Shown one piece after another: positions 1,215 to 34,176 of a DNA stretch of 34,226 nt; the stretch's first letter is position 1, and each line of letters opens with the position of its first letter. The position numbers and the translations under genes were made by a program. Below the pieces are notes generated by a model, which made no database searches, had not been told where the DNA came from, and saw nothing but the letters and a program-made list of their open reading frames with translations. Source of the DNA: Fusobacterium sp. DD2 (GTDB lineage: Bacteria > Fusobacteriota > Fusobacteriia > Fusobacteriales > Fusobacteriaceae); contig NZ_JADRHM010000020.1 of assembly GCF_018205345.1 (NCBI RefSeq), positions 1-34,226 on the forward strand. The letters are read 5' to 3'.

Positions 1215-2093
1215 ATGACAATACGGCACCTTAAGATTTTTTTAGCTCTTTATCAGACTAAGAGCACGACTTTAGCAAGTAAAAAATTACTTGTTGCACA
1301 GCCAACAGTGAGTATTGCATTAAAAGAACTTGAGGATTATTATAATGTAAAATTTTTTGACAGATTTTCTCAGAGACTGCATTTAACGCAGGCAGGAGAG
1401 GAGTTTTATCAATATGCAAAACATATAATTGACCTTTTAGATGAGACAGATCAGCGGATGAAAGAGATTGGAGAAAATGGAGATCTCCGTGTAGGGACAA
1501 GTATTACAATAGGAAATTACTTTTTGCCTAAGTATATCAAGGCATTTGAAAAGGAGTATCCTTCAGCTAAGATAAAAGTATTTATAGACAATAGTAATAA
1601 TATCGTAAAACTTTTATTGGAGAATAAGATAGATATTGGACTTATTGAGGGACAGACAGATAACTCTTTTATTTTAGTAGAGCCATATTTTGATGATACT
1701 CTCTGTATGGTATGCAGTCCAGAGCATAGTTATGCTAAGAAAAAAGAGGTAAATCCAGAAGATATTTTAAATGAAAAATTTATTTTGAGAGAAAAGGGAA
1801 GTGCTGTAAGAGAACTTTTCGATATTCAAATGGCAAATGTAGGCCTTCATGTAGTGCCAATATGGCAGAGTATAAGTTCCAATGCAATAATAAGGGCAGT
1901 TAAGGAAAATATAGGTATTTCAGTACTTCCATATTTTCTAGTGAAGGATCATATTGAAAAAGGTGAGCTTTGTACAGTTAAAGTAAAAAAAATTAATTTT
2001 TCTAGAACTTTTAATATTATATGCCACCGTAATAAATTTCATACACTGTTTTTGGATAGATTCATTGAGATATGTAAGAAAATAATGGAATAA
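1215..2093 (+). CDS. LysR-family transcriptional regulator
   Basis: The 292-aa protein has an N-terminal winged helix-turn-helix (residues 1-60, with the typical TLASKKLLVAQPTVSIALKELE recognition region) and a periplasmic-binding-like effector domain (about 90-290, starting LRVGTSITIGNYFLP). Length is normal for the family. The ATG follows an AAAGGAG ribosome site. It diverges from the chromate transporter pair, and LysR proteins usually control the gene they diverge from, so it probably regulates those genes and itself. The effector is unknown. The effector domain resembles CysL/CbbR-type anion-sensing members only in general form. Confidence 0.88.
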   Translation: MTIRHLKIFLALYQTKSTTLASKKLLVAQPTVSIALKELEDYYNVKFFDRFSQRLHLTQAGEEFYQYAKHIIDLLDETDQRMKEIGENGDLRVGTSITIGNYFLPKYIKAFEKEYPSAKIKVFIDNSNNIVKLLLENKIDIGLIEGQTDNSFILVEPYFDDTLCMVCSPEHSYAKKKEVNPEDILNEKFILREKGSAVRELFDIQMANVGLHVVPIWQSISSNAIIRAVKENIGISVLPYFLVKDHIEKGELCTVKVKKINFSRTFNIICHRNKFHTLFLDRFIEICKKIME

Positions 2094-9649: not shown

Positions 9650-9856
9650 AAAGAGGCTGTTGCATTTCTAAAAGTATAAAAATAAAATTCTCTCCGGGTT
9701 TAATAGTTTCTATTTATATTGCTTACAGAAAGAAAATCCGAAACTCACTGCGTTCAGACAGTCGAATTTTAAGTATTCTGTTTCGCTGCATAAATTACGA
9801 AACTATTTCTAATATCGAGAATTTTAATTTTTATAAATTTGCAACAGCCTTTTTTT
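9650..9856. repeat. Palindromic intergenic repeat, copy 1 (also a terminator)
   Basis: This ~200-bp element has perfect 11-bp outer arms, AGGCTGTTGCA (9654-9664) and TGCAACAGCCT (9840-9850). The pairing continues imperfectly inward for tens of bases, and a run of T follows the right arm. It carries no ORF. A 91-base core (9727-9817) is repeated in inverse orientation at 11573-11663 with six differences. It fills the gap between the convergent glgP and aroA genes and can act as a terminator for either strand. It looks like a MITE or a dispersed terminator-type repeat. No transposase is present. Confidence 0.8.
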
Positions 9857-9858
9857 CT

Positions 9859-11124
9859 TTATATATGTTCCAGTTTTACTCCAAGACTCATTAAATCTTT
9901 GAAAAAGTCTGGATACGACTTTTCTATTACATGGGCCTCAGTTATTACTGTAGGGGTTTTGAGCTTTGTAGCAGCTACTGACAGACTCATTACTATTCTA
10001 TGGTCAAGATGGTTAAATAAAGGGGCCATAGATGTATATTCCCCATTGCCACTGATATAGATGTCGTCTTCATCGCTTTTTATATCAACTCCAAGCTTTT
10101 TCAGTTCACTTTCCATAGCTTCAATTCTATCGCTCTCTTTGTATCTTAAACGTTTGGCATTGTAAATATGTGTTTTCCCAGAAGAAAACATTCCCATAAC
10201 CATTAAAATAGGACCCAGATCAGGACAATCTTCAAGGTTTATCTCTGTTCCCTTAAGTGGTGCTGGTAAAAATCTATAGCCATCTGAAAGCTCTTCCACA
10301 ATACCACCTGCAGATTTTATTATATCTATAATCTGCTTGTCTCCCTGAGATGAAGATTTACGAAGTCCACGGCACTCAAGAGGGCCATTTATACTTCCTA
10401 ATACTGCAAAAAAACCAAGCTGAGAAAAATCTCCTTCAACCTTGTGGTTACAAGGTTGATATTTCTGGTTTCCAGGAATATATATTGTCAATTCATCTCT
10501 AAATTTGGCTATTACTCCAAACTCCTTTAACATCTCTATTGTGAGATTTACATAGGATTTAGATTCAAAAGGTGGGTTTATTTTAATTGTTGAATCTCCG
10601 TCTAAAAGTGGAAGTGTAAAAAGTAGACCACTTATAAATTGAGAACTTACATTCCCATCTATTTCATAGGTATCACTTGATAGTTTTCCACAGATTTCTA
10701 TTGCGTCATCTCTATGAAGATATCTTAAATTTTGTTCTTTAAAAATTGTTTCGTATATTTTTTGTGGTCTTTGAAGAAGTCTGTTTCTTCCTTGAAATCT
10801 TATGTTTTCTCCAGTAAGTGAAAAAATAGGAATGAAAAATCTAAGTGTAGAACCAGATTCATTACAATCTATAACCCTATCTTTTATATTTGTAAAATCC
10901 TTTATCCCTTGAATAGTGAGAGTATCACCATTTTCTTCAATTTTAGCTCCCAGTTTTTTCATACCTTCAATAGTTGCAATTATATCTTTTGAATAGGCAA
11001 TATTTGATATTTTACTTATTCCATCAGCTAGGGATGCACAGATTATTGCTCTATGTGCCATGCTTTTTGATGGGGGAATGACAACCTCTCCCTGAGGTGT
11101 TGAAGGGTAGATTTTTATATCCAT
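9859..11124 (-). CDS. aroA: 3-phosphoshikimate 1-carboxyvinyltransferase (EPSP synthase)
   Basis: This is the shikimate-pathway enzyme that joins phosphoenolpyruvate to shikimate-3-phosphate. The 421-aa protein has the N-terminal substrate loop PPSKSMAHRA (Lys20), NESGSTLRFF near residue 88, the catalytic region CPDLGPILMVMGMF, the signature LRYKESDRIEAM, and DHRIVMSLSVAA near the C-terminus. Length is normal. The ATG at 11124 is the only plausible start, because an in-frame TAG lies about 36 bases upstream. The strong AAAGGAGG is 44 bases away, with a long hairpin between it and the start (separate entry). It diverges from a chorismate mutase gene, which acts two steps later in the same pathway. 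Confidence 0.95.
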   Translation of the reverse strand: MDIKIYPSTPQGEVVIPPSKSMAHRAIICASLADGISKISNIAYSKDIIATIEGMKKLGAKIEENGDTLTIQGIKDFTNIKDRVIDCNESGSTLRFFIPIFSLTGENIRFQGRNRLLQRPQKIYETIFKEQNLRYLHRDDAIEICGKLSSDTYEIDGNVSSQFISGLLFTLPLLDGDSTIKINPPFESKSYVNLTIEMLKEFGVIAKFRDELTIYIPGNQKYQPCNHKVEGDFSQLGFFAVLGSINGPLECRGLRKSSSQGDKQIIDIIKSAGGIVEELSDGYRFLPAPLKGTEINLEDCPDLGPILMVMGMFSSGKTHIYNAKRLRYKESDRIEAMESELKKLGVDIKSDEDDIYISGNGEYTSMAPLFNHLDHRIVMSLSVAATKLKTPTVITEAHVIEKSYPDFFKDLMSLGVKLEHI

Positions 11125-11131
11125 AACTCTC

Positions 11132-11176
11132 TTGTATGATAAATATGTGAAAATATTTATCTATACAACCTCCTTT
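11132..11176 (-). promoter_or_regulatory. Shine-Dalgarno plus intervening hairpin of aroA
   Basis: In the aroA leader AAAGGAGG (11169-11176) is followed directly by a hairpin (11132-11168). TTGTAT pairs with ATACAA and GATAAATA with TATTTATC, with one bulged A and an 8-base loop. Seven bases (GAGAGTT) then lead to the ATG. If the hairpin folds, the effective Shine-Dalgarno spacing becomes about 7, which is ideal. Confidence 0.65.
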
Positions 11177-11223
11177 ATTTTTTATTACTATATATTCTAC
11201 AACTTTTTTTAATTAATTAAAAG

Positions 11224-11251: not shown

Positions 11252-11524
11252 ATGAATAAACTTGAAGAGGCTAGAAAAAATATCAATAGAATAGATAAAG
11301 AGATGGCACATCTTTTTGAAGAGAGAATGAGATGTGTAGAGGATGTAATAGCATATAAAATGGAAAATGGGATGAAGGTACTGGATACTGCAAGGGAAAA
11401 AGAGGTCATAGAAAAGAATCTTAAACTTATTGAAAACAATGAGTATAAAGAGTATTACAGGGAGTTTATTCAGGATATGATGGATATCTCAAAGAAGTAT
11501 CAGGAAAAAATAATAAAAAAATAG
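11252..11524 (+). CDS. Chorismate mutase (AroQ class), stand-alone
   Basis: The 90-aa, all-helical protein matches the monofunctional AroQ fold that converts chorismate to prephenate. Visible family features are the N-terminal EARKNINRIDKEMAHLFEERM with its Arg and Asp positions, the middle VIAYKMENGMKVLDTAREKEVIE containing the active-site Lys and the Asp-x-x-Arg-Glu motif, and a C-terminal helix ending near YREFIQDMMDISKKYQ. AAGGAGG lies just upstream. It is not fused to prephenate dehydratase or dehydrogenase. It diverges from aroA, so the pair may be co-controlled. I leave the symbol blank because aroQ and aroH are used inconsistently for this protein. Confidence 0.88.
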   Translation: MNKLEEARKNINRIDKEMAHLFEERMRCVEDVIAYKMENGMKVLDTAREKEVIEKNLKLIENNEYKEYYREFIQDMMDISKKYQEKIIKK

Positions 11525-11532
11525 ATAAAAAA

Positions 11533-11733
11533 TGAGGGTGTTGTATTTTTAAAAATGTAAAAATAAAATTCGCGATATTAGAAATAGTTTTGTAATTTAT
11601 GCAGTGAAACAGAATACTGAAAATCCGACTGTTTGAACGTAGTGAGTTTCGGATTTTCTTTCTGTGAGCAAAATAAATAGAAACTATTGATACCAGAGTG
11701 AATTTTATTATTTACTGATTTACAACACCCTCA
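11533..11733. repeat. Palindromic intergenic repeat, copy 2 (inverted relative to copy 1)
   Basis: The element has perfect 13-bp outer arms, TGAGGGTGTTGTA (11533-11545) and TACAACACCCTCA (11721-11733). Its 91-base core (11573-11663) is the reverse complement of the core of copy 1 with six differences. It fills the gap between the convergent chorismate mutase and brnQ genes. Two arm positions differ from copy 1 and both keep base pairing. No ORF is present. Confidence 0.8.
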
Positions 11734-33826: not shown

Positions 33827-34176
33827 GGGGATGTCTAGGTCTCGACGGGATTATGAGGTTATAGGTAGCAGGCCAGGGTGACCGCTGTGAGAGGTCAACT
33901 CATCGTTTAGATGGAAATAGAAATTACGCTTTAGCTGCTTAATTAAGTCAGCTCACTTCTGATTGCTCTCTTCTGTAGGAGCATTCAACCGAAGTGTCAT
34001 TTATTTACAGATTACTTTCAGTGATTTCTCTAAGCTGAAAGGACATTCTAGAGGATAGCTTTAATCAGCCCTGTCTGTGGGAGTGGTTATTGCGAAATTC
34101 AATAGCAGACTAAGCTTGTAGAAGCTTATGGCGCTTATGGTTTCGGACACGGGTTCAAGTCCCGTCATCTCCACCA
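33827..34176 (+). ncRNA. ssrA: tmRNA (SsrA)
   Basis: This is a 350-nt one-piece tmRNA. The 5' GGGGATG pairs with CATCTCC before an encoded CCA, and the 3' part has a T-arm with GGTTCAAGTCCC. The 5' end carries the conserved GGTCTCGACGGG segment. The tag frame follows TAGAT at 33913-33942 and reads GGA AAT AGA AAT TAC GCT TTA GCT GCT TAA, giving GNRNYALAA, with the ALAA end recognised by ClpXP-type proteases. The segments between tag and T-arm contain several paired runs as expected for pseudoknots. It lies next to smpB, its protein partner. Confidence 0.96.

Follow-up and report, generated by a model that had tools for sequence, protein, structure and literature searches.

How could a ribosome initiate at a start codon when the only strong Shine-Dalgarno (SD) sequence ahead of it lies 44 nt away? 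The question is raised by aroA of Fusobacterium sp. DD2, which we studied within a stretch of 34,226 nt analysed as a whole (the window).

The aroA leader and its stem-loop

aroA (9859–11124, minus strand) encodes a 3-phosphoshikimate 1-carboxyvinyltransferase of 421 aa and was identified by its match to TIGR01356 (334 bits against a cut-off of 287). The start codon is conserved in relatives: MDIKIYPS aligns with their MKVKIYPS and fits the conserved AroA N-terminus. The frame is free of ATG, GTG and TTG from the upstream stop down to this ATG, and an upstream in-frame start was rejected, as the open extension INIFTYLSYKRV offers only ATA and ATT as first codons and is not conserved.

Read on the minus strand, the leader consists of the SD AAAGGAGG (11176–11169), a spacer TTGTATAGATAAATATTTTCACATATTTATCATACAA (11168–11132), GAGAGTT (11131–11125), which contains a weak proximal site, and the ATG (11124–11122). 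A sequence-only reading of this DNA had described a strong ribosome site 44 bases from the ATG, followed by 37 bases folded into a 14-bp stem with one bulge. The distance, the 37 nt and the single bulge (an A) were borne out; the predicted stem is one pair longer, with 15 bp (6 + 9) closed by the loop UUUCAC, so that the leader runs AAAGGAGG - TTGTATAGATAAATAT - TTTCAC - ATATTTATCATACAA - GAGAGTT - ATG. With this stem-loop folded, 7 nt would remain between SD and ATG, as that reading had also proposed. Folded alone, the minus-strand spacer gave -11.0 kcal/mol, and the 101 nt around it were more stable than all but one of 200 dinucleotide shuffles (z = -2.54; the test used the plus strand, which is nearly equivalent because the sequence is palindromic). 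The window contains the inverted repeat a single time, against an expectation of none. Two possible sources of the hairpin were rejected: a mobile or repeated element, since the genome holds no further copy and the only similar sequence is a borderline case ahead of a MerR gene (see below), and a tandem duplication of the start region, for which there was visual resemblance only.

Upstream of the SD lies a promoter-like stretch, AAAAAAAGTTGTAGAATATATAGT (11189–11212, minus strand), whose putative function is suggested by its alignment with the leaders of five relatives (G005 and G008–G011); it was not among the hits of a generic sigma-70 scan. Beyond it is a divergently oriented gene for chorismate mutase (11252–11524, plus strand; TIGR01805, 94 bits, cut-off 71), whose SD is of the ordinary kind. 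The two genes are flanked by a 154-nt inverted repeat (9678–9831 and 11559–11712, 90% complementary); a 20-mer from it recurs elsewhere in the genome sample, which suggests a dispersed repeat family. An Rfam search of the window gave no match at the aroA leader, the sole family found being the tmRNA (RF00023, 158.6 bits; 33827–34176, plus strand).

Related aroA leaders and the choice of ribosome site

The sequence-only reading had called for a comparison of aroA leaders in related species. Among the 12 species of the genus compared, all of which carry aroA, the stem was found in this one and was absent from the other 11, so that it is not conserved. In G005, G008, G009, G010 and G011 the leader is alignable, has AAGGAG 5–6 nt from the aroA ATG and lacks a hairpin; the remaining species have different contexts upstream of aroA, likewise without such a hairpin. 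In the alignment the distant SD coincides with the ordinary SD of these five relatives, downstream of a common promoter-like stretch, AAAAAAAGTTGTARAATAT. Judged from these alignments, the hairpin is a species-specific insertion among the 12 species. A relative that kept the distant site without the stem would have spoken against a role for the fold; since the hairpin-less relatives have their SD at 5–6 nt, none retains it.

We then compared the two candidate sites by the energy of their predicted duplex with the anti-SD of 16S rRNA. The distant site gave -12.9 kcal/mol, versus -4.0 kcal/mol for the 16 nt before the ATG. The aroA start thus combines an SD that is too distant with the lack of a good proximal one. 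Our results are computational throughout; we infer that the ribosome uses the distant SD, and that the stem forms in the cell and initiation depends on it.

The same layout at seven further genes

We scanned 1.535 Mb of the same genome, including the window, and 0.8 Mb from five relatives for ATG starts that lack an ordinary SD and have a strong one 19–62 nt upstream, using script-called open frames and start codons. Because thresholds were refined after first looks, the counts are indicative. In the same genome, 6 of the 74 distant-SD spacers were compact stem-loops of -4.9 kcal/mol or lower adjoining the SD (0.28 expected from shuffles), and 4 reached -9 kcal/mol (0.023 predicted by shuffled spacers). 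None of the 62 such spacers in the five relatives (0.8 Mb) was a compact stem-loop. One of the six (L188 +16957) lies inside an open frame and was discounted; a further hit, ahead of a pepV-type gene (L057 -8312), was rejected as an upstream terminator. When the search was reversed, AGGAG or GGAGG abutted the 5' side of 5 of the 19 near-start hairpins lacking an ordinary SD, against a background of 1.6%. When control cores were substituted for the SD, the counts were near those of their own shuffles, except for hits that were the ArsA-type case (L053) again.

In total, aroA and seven further genes of the sampled genome show the layout. From protein-sequence reading we take four of these to be a dppB/oppB-type ABC permease gene (L201 17438, minus strand), gyrA (L109 14903, plus strand; a short 5-bp stem), a MerR regulator (L190 1724, minus strand) and a MaoC-type protein (L124 462, minus strand; 13 nt left outside the stem). 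The others have NCBIfam matches: an M42 peptidase (L080 10582, plus strand), whose start has in addition a proximal site of fair strength (-9.4 kcal/mol), a ChuW/HutW-type radical SAM protein (L057 16457, minus strand) and an ArsA/Get3-type ATPase (L053 8755, minus strand), the M42 and radical SAM matches falling below the curated equivalog cut-offs. Proximal duplexes are weak at the ArsA-type (-1.5 kcal/mol), radical SAM (+0.8 kcal/mol) and dppB (-1.9 kcal/mol) genes. Orthologues of the M42 peptidase and radical SAM genes show the usual spacing, and the MaoC-type orthologue of G008 is without the layout; for the ArsA-type and MerR genes the genus holds no close orthologue. The hairpins share no motif and are mostly unrelated in sequence. 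Among 15 comparisons only the MerR leader hairpin (L190, about 1730–1780, minus strand; GGAGGTTG...GATA-ATATTTT...TTTATCA) resembled that of aroA, a borderline likeness that 2 of 500 shuffles equalled or came close to. We found no paper on structured spacers in Fusobacterium in a literature search with limited coverage of subscription journals.

At dppB (L201 16512–17438, minus strand; relatives' leaders L204–L214 and L217), GAAAGGAGA and the ATG are 31–37 nt apart and enclose a hairpin in all 12 species and in a further genome, G087, so that here, and not at aroA, the stem is kept in close relatives; the layout was not seen at dppB in the other genera of the family examined. The distant SD is identical in all 13 aligned leaders and the stem core CAC/GTG is invariant, while the loops vary. 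In the alignment 87% of the stem cells pair, falling to 42% when it is slid by one column; covariation is not clearly above that of shuffles, 64–144 of 500 reaching each measure. On this alignment the dppB leader is a conserved hairpin in which covariation is not proven, and a candidate conserved leader element; the genus-wide layout may be retained for some reason.

At gyrA (L109 14903, plus strand, compared with L253–L257), the hairpin and a spacing of 26–27 nt are present in this species (G000) and in G008. In G005 and G009 there is no hairpin and 10 nt separate AAGAGGAG from the ATG between matching flanks, the ATAATCGTATG end being common to G008. In G010 and G011 the stem is degraded while a spacing of 27 nt is kept. 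A tree built from three proteins requires more than one change to account for these states. With the exception of G010 and G011, hairpin and long spacing thus appear to have been gained or lost together between matching flanks.

Structured spacer or regulatory element

The most likely mechanism, and the one we favour for aroA, is a structured spacer that is looped out. A short self-complementary sequence would have been inserted between an ordinary SD and the aroA start in this species' lineage. Within the mRNA the insert would fold to a stem-loop starting at the base next to GGAGG, and the 30S subunit would find the SD about 7 nt from the AUG and initiate with the hairpin looped out. Comparable insertions would have arisen repeatedly in the genus. 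Such stems are known from phage T4, where they shorten the distance from 22 to 5 nt in gene 38 and from 27 to 11 nt in gene 25, and where destabilising them lowers initiation (PMC3014915). The aroA leader resembles both in its distant SD and in a spacer-filling RNA stem that gives a working distance (PMC3014915), the 7 nt predicted lying within the range of about 5–11 nt; it differs in belonging to a cellular biosynthetic gene, in its longer stem (15 bp), in its presence in one species and in that its function is predicted. We consider it likely that it is a spacer of the gene 38/25 type, inserted in this species' lineage and tolerated by keeping the effective spacing. The change from 44 to 7 nt, the difference in duplex energy, the SD of relatives at 5–6 nt and the recurrence of the layout argue for this reading; we count against it the restriction of the aroA hairpin to one species, a predicted pairing of the SD with coding sequence (see below), the dppB covariation result and the state of gyrA in G010 and G011. 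To our knowledge, the T4 arrangement is limited to close T-even phages, so that conservation of the stem in relatives is no strict requirement. In E. coli thrS, a hairpin lies between the SD-AUG unit and a single-stranded region upstream of it, whereas the aroA hairpin parts the SD from the AUG. In its split ribosome-binding site, too, the ribosome accommodates the hairpin and does not unfold it (PMC3936740).

The sequence-only reading had proposed that folding restores ordinary spacing, which our analysis upholds, and that AroA synthesis might in this way depend on temperature, a ligand or a protein, which it does not support. Like RNA thermometers (ROSE, FourU), the aroA leader has a hairpin beside the start codon. 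Unlike in these, its stem does not include the SD and is predicted to stay folded up to 60 °C, so that an SD paired and then released in the physiological range was not found. A ligand is argued against by the lack of a match to any known RNA family such as a riboswitch or T-box, and a protein by the lack of a second copy or shared motif. We infer that no regulator is involved.

A protein could also act on the DNA. If the inverted repeat were an operator behind the aroA promoter, a repressor would block transcription and the RNA hairpin would be a by-product. A long, near-perfect palindrome shortly after a promoter-like stretch is indeed in the usual position of a repressor site, but the genome has no second copy of it, and no related sites were found ahead of co-regulated genes, the loose matches lying in unrelated contexts. 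The arms are moreover unequal (the bulged A), and seven other hairpins of mostly different sequence hold the same position after an SD, which fits an RNA role better. We therefore regard an operator as unlikely. The pairing mentioned above would allow a translational switch: folding predicts that the SD (11169–11173) pairs with the CCUUC of codons 6–7 (about 11102–11108), and stem and pairing together might mask the SD until a factor or condition opens it. Predicted access to the SD falls from 0.99 to 0.04–0.24 once at least 20 nt of coding sequence are added (about 4% at +40 nt), near the 2nd percentile among 629 genes of the genome sample. The hairpin is however unnecessary for this, since the pairing is still predicted when it is deleted in silico (access 0.004), and the pairing is thus separate from it. 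The cost of the pairing is only about 2.4 kcal/mol, the prediction is steady between 20 and 55 °C and shows no switch point, and the leader matches no Rfam family; a switch is, in our judgement, quite improbable.

It could finally be that the hairpin is inert, that aroA initiates at the weak GAGAG or without an SD, and that AAAGGAGG is a relic. An evolutionarily recent insertion, seen in one species, need not have kept function, and little SD pairing suffices at some start sites; yet the proximal duplex of aroA is weak, those of the ArsA-type, radical SAM and dppB genes are weaker still, and the distant SD of dppB is invariant in its 13 aligned leaders, unlike what is expected of a relic. We give this reading very little credence. 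The structured spacer remains our preferred explanation, and such hairpin insertions are probably mostly tolerated, not regulatory, because folding restores the normal SD-AUG distance.

As far as we know, structured spacers are on record chiefly for a handful of phage genes, and what is new here is seven further genes with the SD-hairpin-ATG layout in 1.5 Mb of one genome. Gene finders and translation-rate models that seek an SD 4–13 nt from the start would miss such sites. gyrA, whose hairpin is present in some sister species and missing from others, offers natural pairs for setting folded against linear distance, and a genome with several structured spacers bears on how such insertions arise and persist.
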